Assembly: GCA_024681775.1 (NCBI GenBank)
Contig: JAILAF010000032.1
Coordinates: 1 to 51,450, forward strand
Length of the DNA: 51,450 nt
Direction of reading: 5' to 3'
DNA from: Lachnospiraceae bacterium
GTDB lineage: Bacteria; Bacillota; Clostridia; Lachnospirales; Lachnospiraceae
Of the stretch, positions 232 through 43,222 are shown piece by piece. Under the pieces are notes generated by a model. That model was given only the letters and a program-made list of their open reading frames with translations, was not told where the DNA came from and searched no databases. Made by a program: the position numbers and the translations under genes. Position 1 is the stretch's first letter, and every line of letters begins with the position of its first letter.

Positions 232-286
232 TATTCTAATGGACACATTTGCTGTATTGTAATAGACAGATTTGAAAGAAATCAAA
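218..286. repeat. Three 23-bp direct repeats
   Basis: AGACAGATTTG (218), GGACACATTTG (241) and AGACAGATTTG (264) begin at exact 23-base intervals. The first two full units match at about 18 of 23 positions, while the third keeps only its first half. Multiple short repeats of this kind occur at the ends of IS21-family elements, and iterated operators also look like this. No transposase is in view, so the origin is open. Confidence 0.5.
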
Positions 287-314
287 AAGACCTGTGCAAA
301 AGCACAGGTCTTTT
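284..314 (-). terminator. Intrinsic terminator of the metK-radical SAM operon
   Basis: A perfect 9-bp stem, GACCTGTGC (289-297) with GCACAGGTC (302-310), has a 4-base loop and is followed on the minus strand by five T residues. It lies just downstream of the ABC ATPase gene and could work in both directions because T's flank both sides. Confidence 0.85.
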
Positions 315-330
315 CTTTTCGACACATGCG

Positions 331-1128
331 TCAGATATAGTACTCCAGATCAATGTCACTGGAGCCCAGGAAGCATTTCAGGATGTGCTTCCGGATCTTC
401 AGAAACTCCTCGCTTCCCCGGTCTCTGGGACGGGCGCTCTCCACCCTGATCACCTCCTGAATGGTTCCGGGGCGTTCCGACATGATCACGATCCTGTCAC
501 TGAGGAAAATCGCCTCGTCGATATCATGGGTGATGAGGAGCATGGTCTTGTTTTCCTTCCGCCAAATGTCCAGGATCTCATTTTGCATATTGATCCTGGT
601 AAAGGCATCCAGGGCGCCGAAGGGCTCATCCAGGAGCAGGATGTCCGGATTGCCGATGAGGGCTCTGGCAATGCCGGCGCGCTGCTGCATTCCGCCGGAA
701 AGCTGCGCGGGGAATGCATCCTCAAACCCATTCAGCTTCACCAGCTCCAGATACTTCCGGGTCATCTCCTTTTTCTCCTGCTTGCTGAGGGACTTATCGG
801 AGATGCCGAATTCCACGTTTTTCGCGATACTGCTCCAGGGGAAAAGCCTGGCCTCCTGAAAGACCATGCCCACCTCACGGCTGGGCTTTTTCACCTCATT
901 TTCACCGATGGAGATCTGGCCTTCCGTCACCGGATCCAGGCCCATGATGAGCCGGAGGAGGGTGCTTTTTCCGCAGCCGGAAAAACCCACAATGCTGACA
1001 AATTCCCCTTCCCCGATCTCCAGGTTCACATCCCGCAGCACCTCCAGGTTTTCGGCATCCACCCGGAAGCTCTTATACACATGCCGGATCTGTAATTCTT
1101 TGTTCCTCTTTGCATTTCCCGCTTCCAT
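331..1128 (-). CDS. ABC transporter ATPase, SsuB/TauB/NrtD type
   Basis: ATP-hydrolysing subunit of an importer of the nitrate/sulfonate/taurine family; it should sit on the cytoplasmic face of the permease at 1133-1915. From the chosen start (265 aa) it shows Walker A GFSGCGKST (48-56), signature LSGGMQQR (143-150), Walker B ILLLDE (163-168) and the switch His at 201. The start at 1128 is preferred to an upstream ATG at 1200 because it has GGAAG a few bases upstream and lies 4 bases after the permease stop; the longer form would overlap the permease by 68 bases. It is the last gene of the metK-led operon and is followed by a strong terminator. The substrate cannot be read from the ATPase; sulfonate is only one option in a family that also moves nitrate, pyrimidines and aromatics. 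Confidence 0.9.
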   Translation of the reverse strand: MEAGNAKRNKELQIRHVYKSFRVDAENLEVLRDVNLEIGEGEFVSIVGFSGCGKSTLLRLIMGLDPVTEGQISIGENEVKKPSREVGMVFQEARLFPWSSIAKNVEFGISDKSLSKQEKKEMTRKYLELVKLNGFEDAFPAQLSGGMQQRAGIARALIGNPDILLLDEPFGALDAFTRINMQNEILDIWRKENKTMLLITHDIDEAIFLSDRIVIMSERPGTIQEVIRVESARPRDRGSEEFLKIRKHILKCFLGSSDIDLEYYI

Positions 1129-1132
1129 AGGG

Positions 1133-1915
1133 CTACTTCCTTTCGTCCCTGAGATAATTCCACCGTAGCAGCTTCTTTTGCAGCCGCAGCAGTCCCGCAT
1201 CGATCAGCAGTCCCACGATGCCGATGGTAAACACGCCTGCCAGCACCACGTCCGGCTGGGACAGCTCCCGAGCGTAGGTGATCATGTAACCGATGCCGGA
1301 GGAGGCGGCGATCATCTCTGCCGCCACCACGCAGGTCCAGGCAGTGCCGAAGCCCAGCCGCACCCCGGTGATGATGGAGGGAGTGGCAGAAGGCATGACC
1401 ACCTTCCCCAGGACCTCCAGCCGGCTTTTTTCCAGTACGGTGGCGACTTCCAAGAGCTTTCCGTCCACGGACAGGATCCCCGTGATGGTATTGAGCAGCA
1501 CGGGCCAGAAGGTTCCGATAAAGATCACCGCCACCTTGGATTTCTCACCGATGCCCAGCCACAGGATCAGCATGGGAATCCAGGCAATCATGGGGATCGG
1601 TCTGAGGATCCCTACCAGCGAGGACAGGATCTTGTTCATGCTTCCGGACAGACCCATGGCCGTTCCGATGAAGATCCCGGATACGGCGCCCAGGGCAAAG
1701 CCCTTCAGCACTCTAAAAAAGCTGGTGGACAGATTCTTCCATAGCTTGCCGCTTTCGATCAGAGCGCCAAAGGTCTTCACCACCTTTACGGGGGAGGGCA
1801 GGATGTTGGTATTGACCACTCCCGCTTCGGTGACCGCCAGCCACAAAAGCAGCACAAAAACCGGCGCTATGATGATCTGAAAAAAGGATAGATACTTATT
1901 TTTCGCCTTGTTCAT
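1133..1915 (-). CDS. ABC transporter permease, SsuC/TauC type
   Basis: Integral membrane subunit (260 aa) of the same importer. The sequence shows an N-terminal hydrophobic helix, several further membrane spans and the BPD_transp_1 coupling-loop (EAA) region, around EVATVLEKSRLEVLGKV followed by a conserved Pro. Length fits SsuC/TauC. It starts 12 bases after the PPOX-like gene and ends 4 bases before the ATPase start, so the three genes are translationally close. The importer parts are therefore spread over the operon: the binding protein is separated from the permease by a radical SAM gene and a PPOX-like gene. Confidence 0.9.
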   Translation of the reverse strand: MNKAKNKYLSFFQIIIAPVFVLLLWLAVTEAGVVNTNILPSPVKVVKTFGALIESGKLWKNLSTSFFRVLKGFALGAVSGIFIGTAMGLSGSMNKILSSLVGILRPIPMIAWIPMLILWLGIGEKSKVAVIFIGTFWPVLLNTITGILSVDGKLLEVATVLEKSRLEVLGKVVMPSATPSIITGVRLGFGTAWTCVVAAEMIAASSGIGYMITYARELSQPDVVLAGVFTIGIVGLLIDAGLLRLQKKLLRWNYLRDERK

Positions 1916-1927
1916 CTCTGTCTTTCC

Positions 1928-2401
1928 TCACGCCTGCCCGGCGAGCTTGTCCAAATGGATATACAGCGGGTTGTCCCGGGCTTCCTCCGCAAAGCGGACA
2001 GGGTAGCTCTCCTCCCGAACATCCGTGAGCTCGATCTCGTAGACCGCTGCCAGGTCGCTGTCCGGGATCAGCTCCATTGCACGCTCGTAATGCTTCTGAT
2101 ACTCCTTGCCCGCCACCAGGCTTTTTACCGGGATCCCCTTGATCTGATAGCTCCGGCGATCCGGGGTGATGATGTTGATGGCGATCTTGCGACCGAACCA
2201 CAAGGCAAAGGTCACGTTCTTATTGGTCTGGGATCCCTCCAGCAGCTCATAGTACCGGATGTTTCCCTCCTCGTTTACGGTGATGGTGCCTTTGGGCACC
2301 ACATGGAGTTCTCCGGTCCTGGAGATGGATGCCAGCACCTTGATGCTGCCCGGATCATTGATGGCATCAATGATCTCCTGACTGATCTTCACATTTCCCA
2401 T
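1928..2401 (-). CDS. PPOX-fold flavin-binding protein, copy 1
   Basis: A 157-aa protein of the pyridoxamine 5'-phosphate oxidase-like split-barrel fold, which normally binds FMN, F420 or heme as a dimer. It contains a beta-rich core, a VVPKGT strand after LHV, the NKN motif and an FGRKIAINI strand. It is clearly paralogous to the protein at 4789-5259: both open with an ISxExxDxINDxxSxKVxA pattern and share NKN and WFGRKxAINI. It follows a radical SAM gene by 12 bases, exactly as the other copy does. The true reaction is unknown; nothing shows it to be a PNP oxidase. It may reduce or oxidise the radical SAM product, but that is inference from the pairing. Confidence 0.75.
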   Translation of the reverse strand: MGNVKISQEIIDAINDPGSIKVLASISRTGELHVVPKGTITVNEEGNIRYYELLEGSQTNKNVTFALWFGRKIAINIITPDRRSYQIKGIPVKSLVAGKEYQKHYERAMELIPDSDLAAVYEIELTDVREESYPVRFAEEARDNPLYIHLDKLAGQA

Positions 2402-2413
2402 AGTTTCTCACCC

Positions 2414-3688
2414 CTAATCGATCCTGGCCAGATCCGTGTTGGGATGGTTACCGCATCTGCGATAATCGTCCGTATAGATCTTCAGGCCGTTCTTCCGTCT
2501 GACCTCCGCCAGACCCAATGCCAGCTTCACATAGTATTCCAGAGAAGGTGTCTTCTGATTGACGAACATGGAGCCGGGCAGCGCGTTCCAGACACAGTCC
2601 GCAAAGCTGACGCCATGGCGGCCCATCTCCTCTGCTTCCGCCAGCACCGCTGCCAGAGCCTCATCCTCATCGGCAAAACCGTTGGGCTGCGCCGTTTCCA
2701 CGCCGCCCACGATGCCGCAGTCCACATTGCCTCTTCCGAAGATCTCCACCGCATCGTAGAGTCTGTGCTTCCACTCTTCGTAGCCCACCAGTCTGGATTT
2801 TCCGGGACAGATCCATTTGAAGAGTTCCGGGTTTAAGACCTCCAGGTCCGTGGTATAGGTGGTAATGGCAGTCTCGTCATACATCCGCTGCAGCTGCTTT
2901 TTGGAAAAAGCGCTGGCCACCAGCTTGACGGGGAATTTCTCCGTCTTGAAGGCCTTCTCCGCCGCATGGAGGGTCTTGATGTACAGGTCCACCTCGTCGT
3001 CAAAGATCTCCGCGCCGCTAAGGGTGGAGCCTGCGGTCATATGGAAGGAGCAATAGCGGCCCTTTTCCTTCAGGGCTTCCCGGGTGGTCTCCTCCACATC
3101 CTGAAACCACTTCTCATCCCGGATCTCACCCTCATCATCCTTGGATCTGTGGGCGGAAAAGAGGGCGCAATACTTGCACCCTTCCCCGGGGGTATCCCAG
3201 AAATGGCATTTGGTCTGGGGCGCGATGGTGATCCGCTGGGGCCTGGCGGAAGCCACCAGACACATGGGGGTCCCGTTGGAGGTCTTTTTGTCATAGAAAT
3301 CCGGGCGGTCCCAGAAGGTGACCTCCTCGTAGACCTTGCCGATCTCCTCATCTGTCAGCACCAGCCTGCCGTCCACCACGTCCAGGGTGTAGGGATCACG
3401 ATACGCCTTGGAGTAGTCCGGGGTATCTCCCTGGCAGATCACGGAGCCGTCCCGCAGAAAGAGACCGATGGGGGCTGCGTTTTTGCCATGACCGATCATG
3501 TAATTGTAGGGCTCCACATGGTGCTTATCCGGATCTACCCGGTCCAAAGCCGCCTGCGTGTAATGGATTCCCCGCCTGCTCACGTCGATCTTCAGCGCTA
3601 CGATGGGCGGGATCTCCGGATATTTTTCGATCACCTGATCGTAGGGCAGCTCTTTGGAACGCCACCCGTTCTCACTGTTTCGGCTCAT
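2414..3688 (-). CDS. Radical SAM enzyme, CX9CX2C type, copy 1
   Basis: A 424-aa putative radical SAM enzyme. The only plausible [4Fe-4S] motif is C161-X9-C171-X2-C174 in CHFWDTPGEGCKYC, not the usual CX3CX2C. After it come an aromatic-rich segment, MTAGSTLSG (a possible SAM-binding GGE-like strand), TYTTDLEVLN, ICPGK and GIVGGVE, which resemble the barrel strands of biotin synthase-like enzymes. The C-terminus has a conserved DDYRRCGNH with another Cys. It is about 40-50% identical by eye to the enzyme at 5268-6536 over the core. CX9CX2C spacing is known from Elp3, and MSMEG_0568-type radical SAM proteins are a possible distant match; I cannot confirm either. It is followed at 12 bases by a PPOX-like gene and preceded by the binding protein. 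Confidence 0.8.
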   Translation of the reverse strand: MSRNSENGWRSKELPYDQVIEKYPEIPPIVALKIDVSRRGIHYTQAALDRVDPDKHHVEPYNYMIGHGKNAAPIGLFLRDGSVICQGDTPDYSKAYRDPYTLDVVDGRLVLTDEEIGKVYEEVTFWDRPDFYDKKTSNGTPMCLVASARPQRITIAPQTKCHFWDTPGEGCKYCALFSAHRSKDDEGEIRDEKWFQDVEETTREALKEKGRYCSFHMTAGSTLSGAEIFDDEVDLYIKTLHAAEKAFKTEKFPVKLVASAFSKKQLQRMYDETAITTYTTDLEVLNPELFKWICPGKSRLVGYEEWKHRLYDAVEIFGRGNVDCGIVGGVETAQPNGFADEDEALAAVLAEAEEMGRHGVSFADCVWNALPGSMFVNQKTPSLEYYVKLALGLAEVRRKNGLKIYTDDYRRCGNHPNTDLARID

Positions 3689-3700
3689 CTTACGCCCTCC

Positions 3701-4792
3701 TTACTTTGCCACCGCATCGATGAAGGTTCTGTCGATATGGGCATCGATCTCCTCGGACGTGAGCTCCGTGCTGATCATCTCAAAATCGTGCATGAAGTCG
3801 TAGGTCGCATGGAGGTTCTGCACGCTGTCCTCGGAGAGATCGAACTCGATTCCGGCCTGATCCAGGGTACCCTTCACGAAATCGGGCTCAAACTCGGAGT
3901 ACTGAACGATGAGCTCGTATGCCTTTTCTCTGTCGGCGTCGATGAGCTCCTGTCCCTTTTGCAGCGCATTCAGGAACTTCTGAGTCACTTCCGGGTACCT
4001 GGTCACAAAGTCATTGGAAGCCACGATATAGCTGTAGGCGGGATGTCCCGTCAGATCGGTCACCTCCACAAACTCGCCGCTTGCCACATTTTTGTTGACA
4101 TACTCAGCGTTCATGGAAAGGTAGGCATCGATATCACCGGTGGCAAATGCCGCATCCGCGTCACTGATGGTGGCGATGTTGACGATCTCCGCATCATCCG
4201 CAGAGATCCCGTAATCTCCCAGGATGCCGATGAGGGACTTGTGCACATAGGTGCCGATGTAGACGCCGATGCGCTTGCCCCGCAGATCCTCCGGCTTTAC
4301 GATGCCGGAATCCGCCTTGGCCACGATGCCGATGTTCTTCTCCTGCTTGGCCACCAGTGCCAGGACTCTGGTGCCCACACCGTTTGCGGCGCCTGCGATG
4401 ATGGGCTGGTCGCCGATGCCGTTGACGATATCCACCTCACCTGCGATGAAAGCCTCGTTTACCGCAGGCCCGTTGGCGAAGGTCGCCACATCCAGGGTGA
4501 CATTGTCTCCCGCAAAAACTTCATCGAAAATGCCGCTCTGATAAGCCACGATGAACTGGGCATTCCAGATGGCATTGTGGAAATCCGCCACACGGATGGT
4601 CACTGCCTCAGCGGGTGCTTCTGCCTTGTCCGCCTCGGGTGCGGCCGCAGCCCCGGAGGTATCTGCGCTTTCCGCCTCTTTCCCGGCGGAAGCCGCAGAG
4701 GCGGTGGAAGCATCACTTCCGCAACCCGTAAGCAGTCCTGCGCCCAATGCCGCTACCAATATGCCTGCTGCCAGTCTGTTCCATTTTTTCAT
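3701..4792 (-). CDS. ABC substrate-binding lipoprotein, NMT1/SsuA type
   Basis: Extracytoplasmic binding protein (363 aa) for the SsuBC-like transporter. It has a typical lipoprotein signal, a hydrophobic stretch to LTGC with lipid-modified Cys24, then an Ala/Glu-rich linker to about residue 65. The mature domain has the NMT1/SsuA/TauA pattern: RVADFHNA at its start, a FANGPAVNEAF segment, GEVDIVNGIGDQP, the GKRIGVYIGT hinge and late helices rich in Asp/Glu. Its ATG overlaps the stop of the PPOX-like gene upstream in an ATGA arrangement, implying translational coupling. The family binds sulfonates, nitrate, thiamine pyrimidine, riboflavin and other small compounds, so the ligand is open. It sits between the two radical SAM-PPOX pairs. 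Confidence 0.88.
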   Translation of the reverse strand: MKKWNRLAAGILVAALGAGLLTGCGSDASTASAASAGKEAESADTSGAAAAPEADKAEAPAEAVTIRVADFHNAIWNAQFIVAYQSGIFDEVFAGDNVTLDVATFANGPAVNEAFIAGEVDIVNGIGDQPIIAGAANGVGTRVLALVAKQEKNIGIVAKADSGIVKPEDLRGKRIGVYIGTYVHKSLIGILGDYGISADDAEIVNIATISDADAAFATGDIDAYLSMNAEYVNKNVASGEFVEVTDLTGHPAYSYIVASNDFVTRYPEVTQKFLNALQKGQELIDADREKAYELIVQYSEFEPDFVKGTLDQAGIEFDLSEDSVQNLHATYDFMHDFEMISTELTSEEIDAHIDRTFIDAVAK

Positions 4793-5259
4793 GATCTCTC
4801 CTCCTTAACCAGCCGGTCCAAATGCTTTAAGATGGGGAAAGCCGCTTCCTCCTCCGCTCTCCGGACCGCAAATGTTTTTTCTTCAATGTGCTCCGGCTCC
4901 AGATACCAGATGGCATTCAGATCACCGTCGGGATTCCTGTCTTTTAACGAGGCATAGACCTCTTCAAAGACGCGGCCCGCGGTAACGCTCCTGCGGGGCT
5001 TTGCCGTGATCAGAAAGCTCCTTTTATCCTTCGCCAGAATGTTGATCGCTACCTTTCTCCCAAACCAAATGGAAGAAACCAGATTTTTGTTGACCTGAGA
5101 GCTCTGCAGCAGGTCGTAAAACACCAGATCCTGCCCTTCCGTGTGCAGCGTTCCCTTGAACACCACATGAGGATTTCCCTGGGCATCCGTCGTTGCGATG
5201 ACCTTCAGGCTCTCTTTGTCATTGATGATATCCGCTAATTCTCTGCTTATCTCTGCCAT
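4789..5259 (-). CDS. PPOX-fold flavin-binding protein, copy 2
   Basis: A 156-aa split-barrel protein paralogous to the one at 1928-2401. It shares the opening ISRELADIIND pattern, the NKN motif, WFGRKVAINI, and a similar C-terminal helix ending HLDRLVKE. The start at 5259 (GTGAGG just upstream, 8 bases after the radical SAM stop) is preferred to a longer reading from 5307, which would add residues absent from the other copy and overlap the radical SAM gene. Its stop overlaps the ATG of the binding lipoprotein. The fold usually binds FMN; the actual cofactor and reaction are unknown. The two copies differ at many positions, which suggests distinct partners or substrates rather than a recent duplication. 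Confidence 0.75.
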   Translation of the reverse strand: MAEISRELADIINDKESLKVIATTDAQGNPHVVFKGTLHTEGQDLVFYDLLQSSQVNKNLVSSIWFGRKVAINILAKDKRSFLITAKPRRSVTAGRVFEEVYASLKDRNPDGDLNAIWYLEPEHIEEKTFAVRRAEEEAAFPILKHLDRLVKEERS

Positions 5260-5267
5260 ATCCTCAC

Positions 5268-6536
5268 CTACACTCTCATCAGATCCAGTCCCACATGTGC
5301 CCCGCATCTGCGGAAATCATCCGTGTAGGGGTTGGGACAGTATTTGTGCTGCAGTCTGTCAAACTCCCGGTAGGTCCGGACAAAATAGTCCAGGGATGCG
5401 GCTTTGCCGTTTTGCAGGATGGACTTGGGCGCGGGTCTCCAGATGTTGGCCGCCAGCGCGATGCCGTGGGAGATGATGCTCTCTGCCTCCTCCGTCACCG
5501 CCCGAAAGGCTTCGTCCTCATCGGTAAATCCTTTTCCCTCGGCCAGCTCGACTCCCAGCACCACGCCGGAGGAGACATTTCCTTTTCCGAAGATGTCCAC
5601 TGCGGCAAAGAGCCTCCGCTTCCACTCGTCGTATCCGATGTGTCTGGCCTTGCCGGGACAGATCCACTCGAATTTCTCTTTGTTCAGGACCTCGATGTCC
5701 GTGGTGTAAGTCAGCAACTTTGTCTCATTTTTCAGGCGCTCCAGCTGGCGCTCGTTAAAGGCGGAGGAGATCAGCTGGGTGGGGACTCTGTCTCCGTCAA
5801 AGATCTCTCCGATGATCTTCAGCAGCGCCAGGTATCCTTCCAGCTCATCGTCCAGGAGCTCCGACCCGGAAAGCTGGGATCCGCCGGTGAGCATGATGGC
5901 GGAAAAACGGCCCTTTTGCTTTACCGCTTCCGTGAGTGCCTCTTTCACATACCGGAAATCGTAGCGCTCCTCTTTCTTCCCCGCCGCCAGATAGGAGGGA
6001 CTTAAGGGGCAGTATTTGCAGCCCTCCCCGGGCTCATCCCAGAAGTGACAGTAATGGTTCATGGAGATGTCCAGCCGCTGGGGTCTGGCCTGGACATACT
6101 TGCGTAAGGGCTCTCCGTTGGAGGCTTTTTTATCATAGAAGTCCGGCTTCTCCCAGAAGCCCTCGATCTCCTCCAGTACCTCGTCCTCGTCCACCACCAC
6201 GATCCGGTCGTTCACCACATCGATGGTATAGGGATCTCTGGCGGGCTGTTTCTGGTCAAAATCAAAATTGGCGATCAGGTAGGAGCCGTCCTTCCAGATC
6301 AGGCCCTCCGGTACATAGTCTCTGTTTTCCCGGAAGCCCGTGGCCACATCGCTGTTGGTGGCATGAATGGCGGGATCGATCTTCCGGGTGGCAGCCTCCG
6401 TATAGTAAAGGCCGCGCCGCTGCAGGTCCGCCTTCAGGATCCAGGTGGCGGGCAGATCAGGGTATCTGGCCACCACTTCCTTGTAGGATGGCTCTTTTTC
6501 TCTCCACTGCGGATCTCTTGCCTTTGGTTTTTCCAT
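5268..6536 (-). CDS. Radical SAM enzyme, CX9CX2C type, copy 2
   Basis: A 422-aa putative radical SAM enzyme paralogous to the one at 2414-3688. The cluster motif is C163-X9-C173-X2-C176 in CHFWDEPGEGCKYC. Other shared blocks are RPYT/DPYTxDVV, ARPQR, LTGGSQLSG, TYTTDIEVLN, ICPGK, GIxLGVE-like and the C-terminal DDFRRCGAH. Conservation of every Cys in both copies supports function. It is the second gene of the operon, 17 bases after metK, whose product supplies the SAM co-substrate. The N-terminal 100 residues carry no motif I recognise; they may form a substrate domain. A B12 domain is not evident. Product and substrate are unknown. Confidence 0.8.
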   Translation of the reverse strand: MEKPKARDPQWREKEPSYKEVVARYPDLPATWILKADLQRRGLYYTEAATRKIDPAIHATNSDVATGFRENRDYVPEGLIWKDGSYLIANFDFDQKQPARDPYTIDVVNDRIVVVDEDEVLEEIEGFWEKPDFYDKKASNGEPLRKYVQARPQRLDISMNHYCHFWDEPGEGCKYCPLSPSYLAAGKKEERYDFRYVKEALTEAVKQKGRFSAIMLTGGSQLSGSELLDDELEGYLALLKIIGEIFDGDRVPTQLISSAFNERQLERLKNETKLLTYTTDIEVLNKEKFEWICPGKARHIGYDEWKRRLFAAVDIFGKGNVSSGVVLGVELAEGKGFTDEDEAFRAVTEEAESIISHGIALAANIWRPAPKSILQNGKAASLDYFVRTYREFDRLQHKYCPNPYTDDFRRCGAHVGLDLMRV

Positions 6537-6553
6537 GTTTCGTTCCTCCGCAT

Positions 6554-7735
6554 TTACAGGTACTTTTTAATCTCATCCACTTTGTTCAGTGCTTCCCAGG
6601 GCAGATCCAGGTCGGTCCTGCCGAAGTGTCCGTAGGCCGCGGTCTGCTTGTAGATGGGTCTGCGCAGATCCAGGGCGCTGATAATGGCTGCGGGACGCAG
6701 GTCAAAGACCTGATCGATGATCTCGGTGATCCGCTCATCGGATACAGTGCCGGTGCCGAAGGTATCCACGGAGATCGAAACGGGCTTTGCCACGCCGATG
6801 GCGTAGGCCAGCTCCACCTCCACTCTCTTTGCCGCCCCTGCTGCCACCAGGTTCTTGGCCACCCATCTGGCCGCATAGGCTGCGGAACGGTCCACCTTTG
6901 TGGGATCCTTGCCGGAGAAAGCACCGCCGCCGTGTCTGCCGGTTCCGCCGTAGGTGTCCACGATGATCTTTCTGCCGGTGAGTCCCGCATCCCCCTGGGG
7001 GCCGCCGATGACGAAACGCCCGGTGGGATTCACATAGATGATGGTGTCATCGTCCAGGAGCTCTGCCGGGATCACAGGGCGGATCACCTGCTCGATCACA
7101 TCCTTCCGGATCTGCTCCAGGGATGCCTCCTCCGCATGCTGGGTGGAGATCACGATGGTGTGGATCCGCTTGACGGTCTGCCCGTCCTCGGCAAATTCCA
7201 CCGTCACCTGGGATTTTCCGTCGGGTCTTAAGTAGGGCAGGGTGCCGTCCTTTCTGACCTTCGTCAGCTGTCTCGTGAGTCTGTGGGCGAAGGAAATGGC
7301 GGGAGGCAGGAATTCGGGGGTCTCGTCGGTGGCATATCCGAAGATGATGCCCTGGTCGCCTGCGCCGGTGCCGAAGTCCTCGGTTGCGCCTTCCTGCTTG
7401 GACTCAAAGGCCTTGTCCACACCCAGCGCGATGTCAGCGGACTGTTCGTCGATGGAGGTCAGGACGGCGATGGAATCCGCATTGTATCCGTCCACATTGT
7501 TGACATAGCCGATGTCCCGGATGGTCTGCCGCGCCACCTTGGCGATGTCCACATAAGCCTTGGTGGTGATCTCTCCCACCACCAGTGCCAGGCCGGTGGC
7601 TACCGTGGTCTCCGCTGCGACTCTCGCGTAGGGGTCCCGGGCCAGCAGTGCGTCCAGGATCGCATCCGAGATCTGATCCGCGATCTTGTCAGGATGTCCC
7701 TCAGTTACCGATTCCGATGTAAAAAGTTTTCCCAT
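6554..7735 (-). CDS. metK: S-adenosylmethionine synthetase
   Basis: Makes SAM from methionine and ATP in the cytoplasm, releasing phosphate and pyrophosphate. The 393-aa length and motifs are canonical: GHPDK at 13-17, FGTGAGDQG in the middle, and the phosphate-binding [16 protein letters not shown]. All three SAM-synthetase domains appear complete. An AGGAG ribosome site precedes the ATG. It heads an operon with two radical SAM enzymes, an unusual place for a housekeeping gene; whether the genome has another metK cannot be seen. I looked upstream for the conserved core of SAM-I (S-box) and SMK riboswitches and found none, so control by SAM is not evident. Confidence 0.97.
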
Positions 7736-7794: not shown

Positions 7795-7824
7795 ATTATC
7801 ATATCAGCTAACCCGAAGTCTGAA
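7795..7824 (-). promoter_or_regulatory. Possible promoter of the metK operon
   Basis: On the minus strand TTCAGA (7819-7824) and GATAAT (7795-7800) are 18 bases apart, about 60 bases before the metK start. The stretch 7780-7806 is strongly AT-rich with an imperfect dyad around AAAATTTT. The match is modest. Confidence 0.35.
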
Positions 7825-7936
7825 AAATCCCAAAAAACTATCGCCCGTGATAACCCTTTCCTTATCGCACGCCTTTCGAACACCCTGCAAACACCGGGCG
7901 TTCCTTTCCCAAATGCTTTCCGACAGTTTTTTTGCA

Positions 7937-8005: not shown

Positions 8006-8854
8006 TCATCCCTTCACCGCACCTGCCGTCAGCCCGGAATAGATCTGCTTCTGGCAGAGGATAAAGACGATCAGCGCGGGGAGGAGGGAAATGATCACCC
8101 CCGCGCAGATCAGATTGTACTTGCTTCCCAGAGGACCCACGAAGGTGTAGAGAGAGGTAGCTACCGTGGCGTATTTCTTTTTGTCCTGCAGGTACAGGGA
8201 AGCGCAATAGTACTCGTTATAGGTGCCCACGCCCTTCAGAATGCAGCTGGTGACGATGGCCGGCTTAAGGAGCGGGAAGAGCACCCTGTAAAAGATCGTA
8301 AAATAGCTGGCGCCGTCGATGATGGCGGATTCGTCCAGAGAGTAGTCGATGTTCTCAAAAAACTGGATATAGATATAGATGGAAATGATATCCGTTCCGC
8401 ACATCATGATAATGTAACCCAGGAGGGAATTGATGAATCCCAGCCCGTACATAATCTCGTACACCGCGATCTGCATGGCGACGCCGGGAAGCTGGGACGC
8501 AAAAAGGAACAGAGCCCGGATGATCTTGTTTCCGAAAAAATGGAACCGGTTCAGCACATATGCCAGCTGTGTCCCGATGATGACCGAGAAAAACAGAACG
8601 CAGACCAGGATGATGAAGGAGTTCACAAACGCCCTCCCCATGCCTGCCTTTTGAAACGCTTCCGTAAAATTCGTAAAGTTCAGCCAGCTCTTCGGCAGCG
8701 TCATCACATTGGTGGTCTGGTATTCCTCATCCGTTTTGAAGGCGGTGATCACGCAGGATACCACAGGCAACACCGCCGCAAAGGAGAAAAATACCAAAGA
8801 GAAATATTTTAAGACCGTAAGACACGATCTTCCCGCCTTTTTCATTCCTTCCAT
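8006..8854 (-). CDS. Carbohydrate ABC permease, MalG type
   Basis: Second membrane subunit (282 aa) of the sugar importer in the mannan locus. It has six predicted spans and the MalG-type coupling motif ESAIIDGASYFTIFYRV followed by LPLLKP-like residues. The start at 8854 is chosen because GGAGG lies 7 bases upstream, inside the end of the MalF-type gene, whose stop is only 3 bases away. In the Roseburia intestinalis mannan locus the equivalent subunit (MPP2) imports beta-mannooligosaccharides; transfer of that substrate here rests on the neighbouring GH130, epimerase and GH36 genes. No ATPase is encoded nearby, so a shared MsmK-type ATPase elsewhere is expected. Confidence 0.9.
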   Translation of the reverse strand: MEGMKKAGRSCLTVLKYFSLVFFSFAAVLPVVSCVITAFKTDEEYQTTNVMTLPKSWLNFTNFTEAFQKAGMGRAFVNSFIILVCVLFFSVIIGTQLAYVLNRFHFFGNKIIRALFLFASQLPGVAMQIAVYEIMYGLGFINSLLGYIIMMCGTDIISIYIYIQFFENIDYSLDESAIIDGASYFTIFYRVLFPLLKPAIVTSCILKGVGTYNEYYCASLYLQDKKKYATVATSLYTFVGPLGSKYNLICAGVIISLLPALIVFILCQKQIYSGLTAGAVKG

Positions 8855-8857
8855 CTG

Positions 8858-9853
8858 TCAACCTCCGGCCTGCGCTGATCCCGCGCGCTTCTTTGCAATC
8901 CTTGCGATGGCTCTCTCCCGCTTTTTTGCCGCTCTCGGATCCTCATCCTCCGCACTGCGGAACACATATTTAAAGAACAGCTTCTGCAGGAGCGTCGCCA
9001 GGAAGATGATCAGCAGCAGAATGATGGCCATGGCAGAGGCCAGGCCCACTTTTTGCTGCGTGTGCGCGATCTGATGCATGACGATAAAGTAAGTCCCCGT
9101 CCCGTTGGCACCGTCGGTGATGACAAAGGGAGGCTCGAAGGCGCTTAAGGAGCCCGTGATGGACAGGATCACATTTAAGGTCACGATGGTCTTGATCCCG
9201 GGCAGGATGATGTATTTGAACTGCTGGAACCGGTTCGCACCGTCCAGCATCGCCGCCTCGTAGAGCTCCTGGTCCACGGACATGATGGCGCCGATGAACA
9301 GGACCATGTTCTGCCCGAAATACCGCCAGACGGAGGTTCCCACCAGGGAGAAATTGTTGATCCGCTGATCCTTCAGCCAGTAGGGAAGATTGTCCAGCTG
9401 AAAACCGCACCACTGGAGGACCGTGTCAAACACGAATCCCCTGGTATAGAAGAACTTGAAGATAAATCCGATGGCGATACCGTTGATCAGAAAAGGGAAA
9501 AACATAAAGCCCTTAAAAATCGCGGATCCCTTCACTTTAAAGCTGAGGATCGTCGCCAGGTACAGCGCGATGGCCAGCTGCACCACCGATCCCAGCATAT
9601 AGTACAGGCTCAGCTTCAGCGCACCGAAGCAGTCATCCCTTTCGAATACCTTGAGATAGTTTTTGAAGCCGACGAACTTTCGCTCCCCCACGTATTTCAT
9701 GTTGTAAAAACTAAAGCCGAACATCTGTCCGAAGGGCAGATAGGTAAAGACAAAAAGCAGTAAGAGGGGGACGATCATAAAGGCGATCATCACAAGCGTT
9801 TTCTGTCCGTCCCGGCTCCTCAGCCATTGTCCCGGGGTCCTTTTCTTTTTCAT
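8858..9853 (-). CDS. Carbohydrate ABC permease, MalF type
   Basis: First membrane subunit (331 aa) of the same importer. Typical features are an N-terminal charged region, a first span ending near FTYLPFGQMFGFSF, and the coupling motif EAAMLDGANRFQQFKYI then LP. An ATG at 9868 is also in frame, but only the ATG at 9853 has a ribosome-binding sequence (GGGAG, 8 bases upstream), so the shorter form is preferred. It partners the MalG-type gene 3 bases downstream and the binding protein upstream. A strong hairpin (9887-9915) between it and the binding protein gene probably lowers permease expression relative to the binding protein. Confidence 0.9.
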   Translation of the reverse strand: MKKKRTPGQWLRSRDGQKTLVMIAFMIVPLLLLFVFTYLPFGQMFGFSFYNMKYVGERKFVGFKNYLKVFERDDCFGALKLSLYYMLGSVVQLAIALYLATILSFKVKGSAIFKGFMFFPFLINGIAIGFIFKFFYTRGFVFDTVLQWCGFQLDNLPYWLKDQRINNFSLVGTSVWRYFGQNMVLFIGAIMSVDQELYEAAMLDGANRFQQFKYIILPGIKTIVTLNVILSITGSLSAFEPPFVITDGANGTGTYFIVMHQIAHTQQKVGLASAMAIILLLIIFLATLLQKLFFKYVFRSAEDEDPRAAKKRERAIARIAKKRAGSAQAGG

Positions 9854-9886
9854 ATCCGTTGCTCCCATCCGTAGCGGGTGATAAAA

Positions 9887-9915
9887 GGCCGGGAAGAATT
9901 CCCTTCTTCCCGGCC
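9887..9915 (-). terminator. Hairpin between binding protein and permease genes
   Basis: A perfect 12-bp stem GGCCGGGAAGAA/TTCTTCCCGGCC with a 5-base loop, followed on the minus strand by TTTT. It probably acts as a partial terminator or as a 3'-end stabiliser of the binding-protein message, as seen in mal-type operons. Confidence 0.6.
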
Positions 9916-9930
9916 CTGAAGAAAGTCAGA

Positions 9931-11385
9931 TCAGTAAAGTACTTCGATACCCAGTTCCTTCTGTGCGTCCTGCCACTTCCGGTTCCAGTCGGCCATGATA
10001 TCGTCAAAGGTCTCGGACCCGGTAGCCGCAGCCTCCACGATCCGCTGCACCTTGTCGTTGCCGCCGGCGTTGATGGACAGCTCGGACTCGGCATTCATGT
10101 CGTTCAGGAAAGTCTCTTCTCCTGCCAGTGCAGGCTGGTCGGACAGAACCTCGCAGCCGTTGAACGCCGCATACATGTCAGGATTCTCGCCGCCCTTGAC
10201 GACGGTGTAGCCACCCTCGTTGAAGCACCAGCCGGACTTCTCTACCATCCACTTTACAAAGATCAGGGAAGCCAGCTTGTTCTCATCGGATGCGTTTACA
10301 TTGATGCAGTAGTTGTAGTCGCCGCCGGCGCTGACATACTGAGTTCCGCCCACGGTGATGGGGAAGGGCATGTAGCCCACATCCTCAGGCTTGTCACCAG
10401 CTTCCTGCATCTGTGCATATGCCCAGGAGCCCAGGACCATGACACCGATCTCGCCTCTGTTGAGCATGCCCTTGCAGCCCTCCCAGTCGGTGGTGGTGTA
10501 GTCGTCCTCGATCAGGCCCTGTGCCACTGCGTCAAAGAGGATCTTGTAGACACTGTAGGCGCCGGTTCCGTCGCCGGGATCCTTGAAGGGCTCAGCGGTG
10601 TGGACCAGTTTCTGGTTCATGTACGTGTTGTCGCCGTTGGATACGCTTCCCACATAGGCATCCCATGCGCCCATGGTCCAGCCTGCAGCATAGTTGGTAT
10701 AGAGAGGGATGGCGTCGGTGTTGTCCTTGATCAGCTGCAGATCCGCGATGAGCTCATCGGGGGTGGTGGGCAGTGCAGTGATCCCTGCCTGTGCGAAAAC
10801 AGCCTTGTTATACAGCACGCCCTGTGCGTTTGCCATGTAGGGGATACCGTAGCAGTTGCCGTCGTACTCCCAGGAGTCAACAAAGTTCAGGTACTGGGAC
10901 AGATTGTCCAGCGTGTCCAGAGGCATGAAGTAGGTGGAAAGATCCGTCTTGTCCACAGCAGGGATGAACATGATGTCGCCCCAGTCGCCGGTAGAGAGGC
11001 GGAGCAGGGAATCCTCGGCGTAATCGGTCACTGCCTCAGTGGTCACGGTGATGCCGGGATAGGTCTTGTTAAACTCGGCGATCATGGCAGCCATGGTGCC
11101 GTCAGCCTCACGGTCGGTCTTGTGGTGCAGGAACTTGATGGATGCGGTCAGGTCCGTATGGTCCTCCAGGTTCAGCGTCGTGTAAGACAGGGGGCCTTCC
11201 GCTGCAGCAGTGCTGTCTGCAGAAGCGGTGCTGTCTGCGGAAGCGGCAGATCCCGTGCTCTCGGTCTGAGCACCGGCGTCACTTCCGGTCCCGGCTGCGC
11301 TGTCGTCTGCTCCGGAACCACATCCGGGCAGTGCGACTGCCATGACGATGGCTGTGAACAAAGCAAGCAATTTTTTCTTTTTCAT
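9931..11385 (-). CDS. Mannooligosaccharide-binding lipoprotein, SBP family 1
   Basis: Extracellular solute-binding protein (484 aa) for the MalFG-type permeases. The signal peptide ends ALPGC with lipidated Cys22, then a Ser/Ala/Asp-rich linker to about residue 70. The mature part has family-1 SBP features: IKFLHHKTD near its start, NKTYPGITVT, LSTGDWGDIMFIP, SWEYDGNCYGIPY and NKAVFAQAGI. Aromatic and acidic residues are frequent, as in sugar binders. It is preceded by a good promoter with an inverted-repeat operator (11410-11479), and LacI regulator 1 lies just upstream. By position it corresponds to the mannooligosaccharide-binding protein MnBP of Roseburia; affinity for mannan fragments is inferred from context. 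Confidence 0.85.
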   Translation of the reverse strand: MKKKKLLALFTAIVMAVALPGCGSGADDSAAGTGSDAGAQTESTGSAASADSTASADSTAAAEGPLSYTTLNLEDHTDLTASIKFLHHKTDREADGTMAAMIAEFNKTYPGITVTTEAVTDYAEDSLLRLSTGDWGDIMFIPAVDKTDLSTYFMPLDTLDNLSQYLNFVDSWEYDGNCYGIPYMANAQGVLYNKAVFAQAGITALPTTPDELIADLQLIKDNTDAIPLYTNYAAGWTMGAWDAYVGSVSNGDNTYMNQKLVHTAEPFKDPGDGTGAYSVYKILFDAVAQGLIEDDYTTTDWEGCKGMLNRGEIGVMVLGSWAYAQMQEAGDKPEDVGYMPFPITVGGTQYVSAGGDYNYCINVNASDENKLASLIFVKWMVEKSGWCFNEGGYTVVKGGENPDMYAAFNGCEVLSDQPALAGEETFLNDMNAESELSINAGGNDKVQRIVEAAATGSETFDDIMADWNRKWQDAQKELGIEVLY

Positions 11386-11409
11386 GTTTTCCTCCTTCTC
11401 TTGTAAGGC

Positions 11410-11479
11410 TTTGTTTAGGTAATTATTATTTTATAACTACTTAATATTTTTTCAATAGGTTAACTAATAATTTACCTAA
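11410..11479 (-). promoter_or_regulatory. Promoter and candidate LacI operators of the sugar ABC operon
   Basis: TTGAAA (11450-11455) and TAAAAT (11428-11433) are 16 bases apart on the minus strand. TTTGTTTAGGTAA (11410-11422), just downstream of the -10, is inverted relative to TTACCTAA (11472-11479) upstream of the -35; a third related site, GGTTAACTAA (11458-11467), adjoins the -35. The first motif recurs at the GH130_2 promoter as TTTGTTTAGGTTA. Confidence 0.6.
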
Positions 11480-11501
11480 CTTCTACTTAATCAACAAAAA
11501 T

Positions 11502-11543
11502 GGCAACTTGTTTTTGGGAGGAATTTCCCTTTGACAAGTTGCC
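11502..11543 (-). terminator. Second of two tandem hairpins after lacI regulator 1
   Basis: GGCAACTTGT (11502-11511) and ACAAGTTGCC (11534-11543) form a perfect 10-bp stem with an inner GGGA/TCCC pairing, followed on the minus strand by ATTTTTG. It probably backs up the terminator at 11555-11580. Confidence 0.5.
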
Positions 11544-11554
11544 TAAAATAATGA

Positions 11555-11580
11555 AAAGCGCCCACTTTCGCGGGCGCTTT
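11555..11580 (-). terminator. Terminator of LacI regulator 1 gene
   Basis: AAAGCGCCC (11555-11563) pairs with GGGCGCTTT (11572-11580), 8-base loop, with a T-rich run on either side. It separates the regulator gene from the ABC operon promoter. Confidence 0.8.
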
Positions 11581-11613
11581 GGTTTTTAGCTAAAAATGAA
11601 TTTGTTAGCCTTT

Positions 11614-12660
11614 TTACTTTACTTTGTTACCCTGTCTCTTCGTCAGATCCTTTACACTGTCCCGCTTGATCAGATAGCCTTCCACAATGCTGAGGCCGCC
11701 GCGGTATTTTTCTCCTCTGAGAACGTGGGTGATCCGCCGCAAAGTCCTGGATACCATCTCATCCATATCCACCTTGTAGGTGGTGATTCCCACGGAGGCG
11801 CCTTCTGCGAAGACGAAATCATCGTATCCCACCAGGGAGATGTCCTCCGGCACCCGGTAGCCTCTGTTTTTCAGGTATTGCATGAACCGGTTGGCTGCCA
11901 GGTCACAATTGCATACAAAGGCGGTGGGAAGCTTGCCCTTGGGCAGCACCAGATTTTTCTCGATATCCACCCTGTCATTGTCGATGCTGCGATCGTTCAG
12001 AACCCAGTCCCGGTTGACCTCAATCCCGTGCTCCATCAGGGCCCTGACATATCCCAGATACCGGTCGGTGATGGAGGGATTGGACAGGACCGTCCCCACA
12101 TAGCCGATGTCGGTATGGCCCATATCGAAGAGATAATTGGTCAGGATGTATGCGCCATAGTAATTCTCGGAGATGACGGAATCCTTGTTCCGCTTTCTGT
12201 CCGCAAAATCCAGATAAAAGGAGGGGGTCCGCATCTGCTCGTCCAGCATATCCAGGTACTCTTCGCTTAAGGCGCCGATGATGACTACCGCATCCACGGT
12301 ACCGTCGCCGATGAGCCTGGGATAGACCAGGTCCTTCTCATCCTCGTCGCTCAGCACCTCCAGCATGGTAAAGGATCCGGCGGTGGCGGCCTTCGCGGAA
12401 AAAAGCTGGTACATATGTCCGTAAAAAGAGTCCACCCTGCTGATGTAGCGCGAGCCGATCAGCACACCGATCTTGTAGTTTTCCCCATCCTGGGGCGCAG
12501 GATTTTTCTGATATCCCCACTCATTGGCAAGGTCGATAATCCTGCGGCGCATCTCCTCGCCCACGCCCTTTTGTCCCGACAGCGCCTTGGACACCGTTAC
12601 CGTGCTGATCCCCAGTTCTGCCGCAATATCTGCCATTGTGATTTTCTTTGACATTCCCAT
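11614..12660 (-). CDS. LacI-family transcription regulator 1, mannan locus
   Basis: DNA-binding sugar-responsive regulator (about 348 aa). The N-terminal helix-turn-helix reads ADIAAELGISTVTVSKALSGQKGV, then a hinge and a periplasmic-binding-protein-like ligand domain. The start is ambiguous: the ATG at 12660 has AGGA 4 bases upstream; the ATG at 12654 gives the usual MSKKITMADIA opening. An ATG at 12675 has no ribosome site. The recognition segment TVSKALSGQKGV is identical to that of LacI regulator 2 (21196-22224), so both probably read the same operators. It lies between an unrelated gene block and the ABC operon. A CG-centred dyad just upstream (12682-12695) may be its own operator. Confidence 0.88.
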   Translation of the reverse strand: MGMSKKITMADIAAELGISTVTVSKALSGQKGVGEEMRRRIIDLANEWGYQKNPAPQDGENYKIGVLIGSRYISRVDSFYGHMYQLFSAKAATAGSFTMLEVLSDEDEKDLVYPRLIGDGTVDAVVIIGALSEEYLDMLDEQMRTPSFYLDFADRKRNKDSVISENYYGAYILTNYLFDMGHTDIGYVGTVLSNPSITDRYLGYVRALMEHGIEVNRDWVLNDRSIDNDRVDIEKNLVLPKGKLPTAFVCNCDLAANRFMQYLKNRGYRVPEDISLVGYDDFVFAEGASVGITTYKVDMDEMVSRTLRRITHVLRGEKYRGGLSIVEGYLIKRDSVKDLTKRQGNKVK

Positions 12661-12681
12661 CCGATCCTTTTGCATCTTTTT

Positions 12682-29036: not shown

Positions 29037-29088
29037 AAGCCTCCCATAAAATCAAATGTCATCGGGTTGCGTTTTTACGATTTCATAC

Positions 29089-29238
29089 GAATTGCTCCGT
29101 TTCTTCGAAACTCTCGCAATTCTCCGTCCATTCGGAATCCGCGGATTTACTTCGTAAATCGCTGCTTCCTCATGTCCGGCAGGTCTCCAAGTCCGAAACC
29201 TCGGCATGCAAGCATGCCCGGTTTCGGATTTTGAGACC
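29089..29238. repeat. Structured intergenic repeat, copy 1 (modules A, B, C)
   Basis: Module A (29089-29122) has outer arms GAATTGC/GCAATTC and inner GTTTC-TTC-GAAAC. Module B (29144-29160) is GATTTAC-TTC-GTAAATC. Module C (29182-29238) nests GGTCTC/GAGACC, TCCGAAACC/GGTTTCGGA and GCATGC-AA-GCATGC. The same order and shape occur at 43050-43213 with compensating base changes. The 342-base gap 28903-29244 therefore holds only hairpins and no gene. Confidence 0.7.
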
Positions 29239-29244
29239 TTGAAA

Positions 29245-43027: not shown

Positions 43028-43049
43028 GTAATCCTCCGATTTCATCCAA

Positions 43050-43213
43050 GGGATTGCTCCGTTTCTTCGAAACTCTCGCAATCCCACAACCATTCACAAT
43101 CCGCTGATTTCCCCGCTCCGCAGGGAAATCGCTTCTTGTTCATGTTTGTTCGGGTCCCAAAGACAAGCATTCTCACGGAAGCAAGCTTCCTTCGAATGTT
43201 TGTCCTTGGTCCC
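43050..43213. repeat. Structured intergenic repeat, copy 2 (modules A, B, C)
   Basis: Module A (43050-43085): GGGATTGC/GCAATCCC around GTTTC-TTC-GAAAC. Module B (43106-43130): GATTTCCC/GGGAAATC. Module C (43152-43213): long arms with GACAAGCATTC/GAATGTTTGTC and an inner GGAAGC-AA-GCTTCC. It has the same order, spacing and linkers (CCATTC, AATCCGC, CATGT) as copy 1, with base pairs changed on both sides. Confidence 0.75.
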
Positions 43214-43222
43214 CTTGGATTA

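Follow-up and report, generated by a model that had tools for sequence, protein, structure and literature searches.

Introduction

It has long been asked how fermenting anaerobes obtain the sulfur of sulfonates when no oxygen is present. Besides the enzymes for taurine and isethionate considered below, lyases for other sulfonates exist. Three oxygen-independent desulfurizing enzymes for taurine or isethionate have been reported, namely Xsc, IslAB and, as the newest, IsrBHDK (PMC11423573). In this study, we analysed an operon of eight genes on a 51,450-nucleotide stretch of DNA, called the window here, from a Lachnospiraceae bacterium (GenBank assembly GCA_024681775.1, contig JAILAF010000032.1, positions 1 to 51,450 of the forward strand). 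The host is an anaerobe, probably a gut or rumen bacterium. The operon (331-7735, minus strand) encodes an S-adenosylmethionine (SAM) synthetase (MetK), two radical SAM proteins (rSAM1, rSAM2), each with a PPOX-like split-barrel protein (PPOX1, PPOX2), and an SsuABC-type importer. We read it as a sulfur-starvation operon that would assimilate an organosulfur compound without oxygen, most probably an organosulfonate, by the mechanism proposed in the Discussion, and we give this reading a probability of about 0.6.

The operon resembles the aerobic SsuABC-SsuD/SsuE system in its SsuABC-type importer, its sulfur-assimilation setting and its flavin-type partner, and an SsuD-like gene lies by the core of the cluster in Paenibacillus. 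It differs in having radical SAM proteins and a dedicated MetK, with no oxygen-dependent monooxygenase among the eight genes. IsrBHDK with SsuCAB of R. capsulatus shares a radical SAM protein and, by our reading, the anaerobic assimilation of sulfonate sulfur and the release of sulfite, but it needs the nitrogenase-like IsrHDK (PMC11423573), which is missing in the window's genome (0 PF00148 matches). According to PMC11423573, IsrB is nearest to BciD and has an unclear role; the main text of that paper contains neither the word PPOX nor the word metK. The methylthio-alkane reductase MarBHDK also cleaves C-S bonds anaerobically for sulfur, and MarD is nearest to a D subunit of the sister branch described below. 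It differs from the operon in its nitrogenase-type clusters, its thioether substrates and the NifB motifs of MarB (PMC12552129). An Isr- or Mar-type nitrogenase-like route was set aside for the window itself on the PF00148 result. The isethionate sulfite-lyase IslAB likewise cleaves a C-S bond by oxygen-free radical chemistry to give sulfite, but it is a glycyl radical enzyme (PMC6453916, PMC8473560), whereas the window operon appears to consume SAM.

The initial annotation of this DNA recognised no named pathway and held that an existing assignment of each gene to one would speak against its proposal. We found no SsuD/SsuE, no glycyl radical enzyme or activase and no nitrogenase-like gene among the eight, the rest of the genome not having been searched for SsuD or for glycyl radical enzymes, and the standard SsuD route was rejected. 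Searches of openly licensed PMC papers listed no description of a gene set of radical SAM protein, PPOX, metK and SsuABC. The operon may work like SsuABC with SsuD/SsuE but without oxygen, and like IsrBHDK with SsuCAB but without the nitrogenase-like enzyme, being a member of neither.

Results

Conservation of the operon in relatives

All eight genes were confirmed, in the order metK, rSAM1, PPOX1, binding lipoprotein, rSAM2, PPOX2, permease and ATPase. With the likelier starts of PPOX1 (5259) and the ATPase (1128), every gene begins with ATG, and the intergenic spacings in gene order are 17, 8, -4, 12, 12, 12 and 4 bases, in agreement with the gaps of 17 bases or less described initially. Seven loci were recovered when genome contigs were scanned with rSAM2. 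Four of them (L029-L032, from three Pseudobutyrivibrio genomes and one Lachnospiraceae sheep-rumen genome) repeat the complete gene order of the operon, which places the arrangement beyond chance. Two Paenibacillus loci (L034, L035) hold an rSAM-PPOX-metK core, and the seventh (L033), a short contig, holds ATPase-rSAM. Versions with one radical SAM/PPOX pair occur in the window's genus as metK-permease-ATPase-rSAM-PPOX-binding protein (G013), metK-rSAM-PPOX-binding protein-permease-ATPase (G006, G014) and metK-binding protein-permease-ATPase-rSAM-PPOX (G028). The order of the genes is shuffled while their content is kept, which argues for a function beyond shared descent.

We then tallied by hand the neighbours at 21 loci with PPOX-type radical SAM genes, the window and L033 included and a short contig of G005 left out. 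Many of the relatives' genomes are incomplete drafts, and their genes were called as greedy longest open reading frames (ORFs), by which genes under antisense ORFs can be missed. PPOX adjoins the radical SAM gene in 20 of the 21 loci (not in L033), metK stands in the array in 16, and SsuABC-type genes are present in 17; none are in view at L034, L035 and the G373 locus, and at the G003 locus there is an NMT1-type binding protein, with an ATPase farther away. The genes thus remain linked, and their dispersal in all relatives, named initially as the outcome that would overturn the idea, was not seen. A single pair is found at 13/21 loci, so one pair suffices, and the view that the two pairs act in series was set aside as unsupported. 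As rSAM1 and rSAM2 are 45% identical and PPOX1 and PPOX2 42%, the pairs are a duplication. In view of the single-pair loci, the second pair appears to be a copy that serves a different substrate.

Four further loci were retrieved by the radical SAM protein alone, with the gene-content prediction fixed before viewing. PPOX adjoined the radical SAM gene in 4/4 (for two of the three radical SAM genes in G633), SsuABC-type genes were present in 4/4 and metK in 3/4. Contrary to the predicted order, PPOX precedes the radical SAM gene in G615 and in one G633 pair. The prediction of sulfur genes held in 3/4 as written, with metK counted, and in 2/4 without metK. The additional genes were NIR_SIR, CysK, O-acetylhomoserine (OAH) sulfhydrylase and a YeiH-type gene in G589, and MetA, serine acetyltransferase, CysK, OAH sulfhydrylase and Rrf2 in G633. 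The G615 locus also has a split SAF and altronate dehydratase-type (UxaA-type) pair between the radical SAM gene and the SsuA-like gene (L184, 10606-12082), which we take to resemble the sulfolactate sulfo-lyase SuyAB. In the PPOX-type cluster of G800, a B12-binding radical SAM protein lies between the SsuA-like gene and metK (L181, 12635-13999).

Association with sulfur assimilation genes

Near the cluster, L029 has YeiH, OAH sulfhydrylase, NIR_SIR, TusA, thioredoxin and ThiF. TauE/SafE lies immediately 3' of the cluster in L031 and L033, and an aminotransferase-V (NifS-type) gene is found in L033 and, with NifU/IscU, ahead of the cluster in L030. In Paenibacillus L034, an SsuD-like monooxygenase gene precedes rSAM-PPOX-metK (344 bits to TIGR03565, below its cut-off of 518); in L035 this gene is cut at the contig end. 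G421 carries, in a single-strand array interrupted by two small ORFs, NIR_SIR, TusA, OAH sulfhydrylase, ThiF, thioredoxin, metK, the binding protein, rSAM, PPOX, permease, ATPase and a nucleosidase. Ahead of the G032 cluster are OAH sulfhydrylase, ThiF, TusA, NIR_SIR and genes read by eye as a siroheme pathway, and OAH sulfhydrylase adjoins the radical SAM/PPOX pair of G373. NIR_SIR was in view at 5/21 loci (L029, L079, L041, L089, L183), compared with about 0.16 expected by a rough Poisson estimate for 20-kb views in 2.7-Mb genomes.

Co-occurrence was then counted over whole genomes, with G005 taken as having the radical SAM gene (its cut copy is below the family cut-off) and G008, with weak matches, as lacking it. 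Among the 31 genomes of the window's genus, its own one counted, the sulfite-reductase-like NIR_SIR gene (PF01077) was found in 8/8 genomes with the radical SAM gene and in 6/23 without it (Fisher p 0.0004, a guide only, as are the other p values). For the 26 genus genomes at least 80% complete p was 0.005, and over 59 genomes the counts were 10/11 and 17/48 (p 0.0015). The own genome, 92% complete, has no PF01507 gene (3'-phosphoadenosine-5'-phosphosulfate reductase/CysD), which is present in 3/19 genomes tested, and no ATP sulfurylase (PF01747), absent from all 11 tested. The sulfite-reductase-like gene of this genome most likely does not serve sulfate.

Operator-like element upstream of metK

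An operator-like element (7820-7865, minus strand) precedes metK. It reads ATAAG-N7-TTATC-N6-GATA, followed by GGATTTTTCAG. We searched with the pattern ATAAG-N6/7-TTATC-N6-RATA, drawn from upstream regions. The own genome has exactly two matches, before the operon (7839-7865) and before the sulfite-reductase-like NIR_SIR gene (C64:47364-47389), whereas the reversed pattern, used as a control, has no match there. In 59 genomes together there were 47 matches compared with 18 for the reversed control, and in the genus 27 compared with 3. Sixteen match loci were opened. Four precede metK or the radical SAM gene (G003, G006, G013, G014) and four precede OAH sulfhydrylase in relatives without the cluster (G004, G010, G020, G023); one is the own NIR_SIR site, one belongs to a peptidase-like gene (G022), and six lie within ORFs or before no clear gene. 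All ten gene-preceding sites have a trailing TAATTTT. In a matrix built on the eight metK/rSAM and OAH sulfhydrylase sites, none of them from the own genome, the own NIR_SIR promoter scored 46.3 bits and the promoter of the OAH sulfhydrylase-NIR_SIR genes of G025 18.9 bits. LysR genes adjoin the cluster in L036 and L038 and, by resemblance, in L039.

The radical SAM proteins and their PPOX-like partners

rSAM1 (5268-6536, minus strand) and rSAM2 (2414-3688, minus strand) had no match in the Pfam search. Both are members of the NCBIfam family NF045502 'variant_rSAM' (160.2 and 188.5 bits, cut-off 125). This is a domain-level family described merely as 'radical SAM protein', and the PPOX-linked members differ from the rest as a separate clade. 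Each carries a CX9CX2C motif. The three cluster cysteines are invariant in 44/44 aligned relatives, the window proteins standing outside the 44 and most relatives having an unusual CX8-9CX2C spacing, and also in a 13-row alignment that holds both window proteins. An AlphaFold2 model of rSAM2 made with 13 sequences (pLDDT 79.9, pTM 0.86) gave 13 PDB matches at E <=0.001, comprising ten radical SAM enzymes, two aldolases and one model named MTAB-YVFG. The query-normalised TM-scores of the ten were modest (0.35-0.42). Lipoyl synthase was the best match, PylB was also found, and the lyases NosL and ThiH were lower down. PDB sequence searches with rSAM2 and its 13-row alignment gave nothing confident. 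These results place rSAM1 and rSAM2 in the radical SAM superfamily by cysteines and modelled barrel fold, with binding of the cluster and of SAM predicted.

In a tree of 45 rows, to which the window proteins were added by hand, 23 PPOX-linked radical SAM proteins form one clade (support 100), and the genes of 22 adjoin PPOX, L033 being the exception. The distribution of the family is rare and patchy: it occurs in 13/391 genomes of the class, and the PPOX-type profile in 5/398 genomes of the phylum, both counts including the own genome. On plasmids, rSAM2 matched 403 records, all below 60% identity. The 15 listed were 25-28% identical, with MSMEG_0568-type proteins among them. The neighbourhoods of two Streptomyces plasmid matches had no annotated PPOX, metK or SsuABC, and that of one Klebsiella plasmid match is an annotated nitrilase cluster. 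A 778-residue protein of G422 (L092, 6622-8958) contains a variant_rSAM-like part; nothing nearby matched the reference transporter and sulfur genes.

PPOX1 (4789-5259, minus strand; ORF open from 5307) had a Pfam match to PNPOx_N below the cut-off (18.6 bits), and PPOX2 (1928-2401, minus strand) had none. The predicted fold of PPOX2 (pLDDT 78.3, pTM 0.71) gave 33 PDB matches at E <=0.001, nearly all of them flavin-binding split barrels with TM-scores of about 0.45-0.6. HupZ was nearest, and HutZ, the F420 reductase MSMEG_3380 and the D. vulgaris FMN-binding protein were also matched. A PDB sequence search with the PPOX alignment gave weak HupZ-type matches (E 0.02-0.03), and matches of PPOX2 to designed Pizza proteins were discarded as apparent chance matches to repeats. 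The models suggest that each radical SAM protein is paired with a split-barrel protein of the flavin-binding kind, the flavin being predicted.

The importer genes

The binding lipoprotein (3701-4792, minus strand) matched Pfam NMT1 (NMT1/THI5-like; 68.9 bits) and SsuA_fam (143.8 bits, cut-off 163.5), and its nearest solved chain is the taurine-binding 6ssy. The permease (1133-1915, minus strand) matched Pfam BPD_transp_1 and, in the SsuC model, scored 177 bits (cut-off 347). The ATPase (331-1128, minus strand; ORF open from 1200) matched Pfam ABC_tran and SsuB (214.8 bits, cut-off 395); its best NCBIfam matches were SaoA, TauB and NtrCD, all below their cut-offs. By sequence resemblance the importer may work like the SsuABC sulfonate importer, its scores lying below the cut-offs for membership. 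The SAO organometallic system was considered and rejected: SaoA scored 258 of 360 bits and SaoP 174 of 295, and no Sao selenoprotein model was among the binding-protein matches listed.

Copies of metK

The operon metK (6554-7735, minus strand) belongs to TIGR01034 (578.4 bits, cut-off 309.4). A check for a second metK had been suggested initially, and one is present in the own genome (G000:C77, 64% identical); the operon copy is an extra one that travels with the cluster. Ten genomes, the own genome among them, have a cluster-type metK and one other, and G373 has three metKs. G042 has the cluster-type metK only, adjoining its nitrogenase-like genes. Eight cluster-free genomes have one metK each and G008 has one and a fragment. 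G003, where no metK adjoins the radical SAM gene, has one, G051 has one, and G005 (72% complete) has none. G391 has two, and also a broken piece with two stops inside its nitrogenase-type radical SAM cluster (G391:C13:79955-80257), about 79 kb from an intact metK on the same contig.

In the metK tree, the cluster-type metKs of PPOX-type loci form one 14-row clade (support 100) together with those from the nitrogenase-type loci in G349 and G368. The metKs of the G373 cluster and of Paenibacillus fall in other lineages, so the cluster metKs represent at least three lineages, and metK seems to have been recruited more than once. PNP_UDP_1 nucleosidases lie in or adjoin the clusters of G373, G368, G349 (on the opposite strand) and G421, and that of G368 exceeds the cut-off for methylthioadenosine/S-adenosylhomocysteine nucleosidase. 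5'-Deoxyadenosine inhibits radical SAM enzymes. SAM synthesis on site and a nucleosidase removing the adenosyl product fit SAM as a consumed cosubstrate. These results suggest that SAM is consumed one-for-one, on the evidence of metK and, in some loci, the nucleosidase.

The nitrogenase-like sister branch and other partners

In G373, G391, G349 and G368, a sister branch of the radical SAM proteins is accompanied by SsuABC and by nitrogenase-like H/D/K genes; an intact metK is also present, except in G391. Of 12 genomes with PPOX-type radical SAM genes tested (the four phylum-level genomes left out), nine had no PF00148 gene, the own genome being one of them. The absence of a nitrogenase-like gene from the own genome and eight relatives suggests that the radical SAM and PPOX proteins may do the C-S chemistry themselves. 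The G349 locus has four radical SAM copies and several importer sets beside one nitrogenase-like set. Genes for a BcrAD-type ATPase and HgdB/double-cubane-type proteins lie inside PPOX-type clusters of two distant genomes (L037, 10196-14341, G026; L183, 4260-7485, G589), where the double-cubane-type genes score under the curated cut-off for that family. The delivery of electrons is what PPOX, nitrogenase-like and double-cubane partners have in common, and this suggests that the radical SAM reaction requires electrons in addition to those spent on cleaving SAM. An arylsulfotransferase gene (ASST, PF05935) lies inside the nitrogenase-like/variant rSAM/SsuABC clusters of G373 (L080, 15284-16741) and G349 (L082, 15671-17128).

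Surroundings of the operon

A terminator-like hairpin with a T-run (284-310, minus strand) lies directly 3' of the ATPase gene. Rfam gave no SAM riboswitch or T-box before metK in the window or in L029-L035; the only matches there were one tRNA (L030) and two Clostridiales-1 RNAs (RF01699) in the window, at 29079-29246 and 43042-43222 on the minus strand, about 14 kb apart. A small ORF, presumably YezD/DUF2292-like, followed by a conserved strong hairpin with a T-run stands just upstream of the cluster metK in L029, L030, L032, L040 and L084. The hairpin was folded for L030 only (z -4.1), and a like arrangement was judged by eye in L136 (G026). This hairpin could act as a terminator or attenuate metK. 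Upstream of the operon on the minus strand (8006-12675) are the genes of another ABC importer (two permeases and a solute-binding protein) and a LacI-type regulator, apparently unrelated.

Discussion

Under the sulfur-starvation reading, the SsuABC-type genes would import the organosulfur compound, and the variant radical SAM enzyme would use SAM and an electron to form the 5'-deoxyadenosyl radical. This radical would abstract hydrogen from a substrate carbon near the C-S bond, and the substrate radical would then fragment. One product would be an alkene or enol, and the other a radical centred on sulfur, for example the SO3 radical anion. The FMN-type split-barrel partner would give the electron that reduces the released fragment to sulfite. 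A siroheme-type sulfite reductase encoded elsewhere would convert sulfite to sulfide, which would enter methionine or cysteine via OAH sulfhydrylase or cysteine synthase, and the dedicated MetK would regenerate the SAM spent one-for-one. The two radical SAM/PPOX pairs would handle two substrates. The net cost would be one SAM and two electrons for each sulfur atom, a price that assimilation could bear and respiration could not.

Comparison of genomes supports this reading through the linkage of the genes, the shared operator, the co-occurrence with sulfur assimilation genes and the presence of the cluster without nitrogenase-like enzymes; the substrate class, C-S cleavage by the radical SAM protein itself, the role of PPOX and sulfite as the product are our inferences. 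The initial annotation had proposed import, SAM-dependent radical chemistry, a flavoprotein step and on-site SAM synthesis. These parts fit the comparative evidence, and the action of the pairs in series does not. Its open list of products (a cofactor, a salvaged sulfur or nitrogen compound, or a detoxified metabolite) can be narrowed, as the neighbours, the operator shared with the sulfite-reductase-like gene and the co-occurrence favour sulfur salvage. Importer-linked organosulfur scavenging is a known kind of system, and the enzyme class inside it is possibly new. We tentatively propose, at somewhat less than even odds, a new class of oxygen-independent C-S lyase in which imported organosulfonates are the direct substrates of an NF045502 radical SAM protein and an FMN split-barrel protein is its partner, MetK paying one SAM per sulfur, and neither a glycyl radical nor a nitrogenase-like enzyme taking part, in a family paired with three kinds of electron-delivery partner. 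Such a lyase would open an oxygen-free source of organic sulfur to fermenting Bacillota of gut, rumen and soil.

Several findings weigh against the sulfur-starvation reading. The binding protein, permease and ATPase stay under every curated sulfonate cut-off, and the ligand is therefore not fixed. The NIR_SIR proteins come nearest to sulfite reductase subunit C but score 161 and 166 bits, short of its cut-off of 324, so nitrite may be their substrate, and G051 of the sister branch has no NIR_SIR. The genomes in the Fisher tests are related and incomplete. Two genomes with the operon, G013 and G026, also hold a PF01507 gene. Among the ORFs of at least 80 amino acids in the rest of the window, none matched the reference sulfur genes, except four generic ABC ATPases. 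An adjoining metK is absent in 5/21 PPOX-type loci (G003, G615, the short contig L033, and those of G373 and G391). Of the loci retrieved by the radical SAM protein alone, G800 has metK and LysR and no other clear sulfur gene, and the sulfur-type content of G615 is the split UxaA-type pair only. PF00148 genes are present in 3/12 PPOX-type genomes (G373, G391, G421), and the solved structure closest to the D subunit of the nitrogenase-like set of G373 is that of MarD (9FMG; 9D9U had an equal score). The operator pattern was defined after the promoters had been seen. In the matrix, the window promoter, whose spacer is 1 bp longer, scored 20.3 bits compared with 19.6 for the best background among 2.16 million positions of fetched loci. 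A strong site of 55.5 bits (L165, G022) precedes the peptidase-like gene, which is odd for a supposed sulfur regulon. The operator-like element still ties the operon to sulfur control, its window copy being weak by the matrix and its pattern post hoc.

The likeness to MarD also bears on the choice of substrate. If a thioether, sulfone or sulfoxide were imported, the product would be methanethiol or sulfide, from which OAH sulfhydrylase would make methionine and MetK in turn SAM. The genes of both enzymes recur next to the cluster, and metK would be explained as the end of the path. We consider this unlikely, though a serious alternative, since the associations with sulfite-reductase-like, TauE/SafE and YeiH genes and the shared operator point to sulfite, the importer is SsuA/TauA-like, and an SsuD-like gene accompanies the cluster in Paenibacillus. 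It is less probable still that the radical SAM and PPOX proteins leave the sulfur compound alone and that the radical SAM protein matures or activates an unlinked cleaving enzyme. MarB is assumed to be such a cofactor maturase for MarHDK (PMC12552129), the role of IsrB is as stated above, and the sister-branch radical SAM genes do adjoin nitrogenase-like genes. Such an enzyme would have to be sought outside the eight genes, which hold no other candidate, in genomes (the own genome and eight PPOX-type relatives) without a PF00148 protein; and the number of radical SAM copies and importer sets per nitrogenase-like set in G349 is as expected for substrate-specific enzymes and not for a single maturase.

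Two further explanations leave sulfur aside. HutW/HutX/HutZ is a system of a radical SAM and a split-barrel protein for haem degradation, and the nearness of the PPOX2 fold to HupZ, with HutZ also matched, recalls it. The window's radical SAM proteins match NF045502, with no Pfam match and no HemN-type model among their NCBIfam matches, the importer is SsuABC-type and the relatives' neighbours are sulfur genes, so we rejected anaerobic haem degradation as extremely improbable. Salvage of a vitamin, a pyrimidine (THI5-like) or a nitrile, as in the MSMEG_0568 nitrilase cluster, whose radical SAM protein is the nearest named family, would agree with the NMT1/THI5-like match of the binding protein and with the nitrilase-type cluster on the Klebsiella plasmid, which carries that radical SAM protein. 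But the window proteins reach only 35.2 and 45.9 of the 303.7 bits set as cut-off for TIGR04043, the operon includes neither a nitrilase nor an AIR-synthase-like or MSMEG_0569/0570/0572-type gene, and the sulfur neighbours and the operator speak for sulfur. The MSMEG_0568-type assignment was rejected, and salvage of this kind appears very unlikely.

If the sulfur-starvation reading is true, oxygen-independent desulfurization would gain a route that relies on SAM radicals and a flavoprotein. The puzzling second metK would be explained, and an unnamed radical SAM family would receive a function. C-S cleavage by the radical SAM protein itself would be directly testable here, with no nitrogenase-like partner to confound it.

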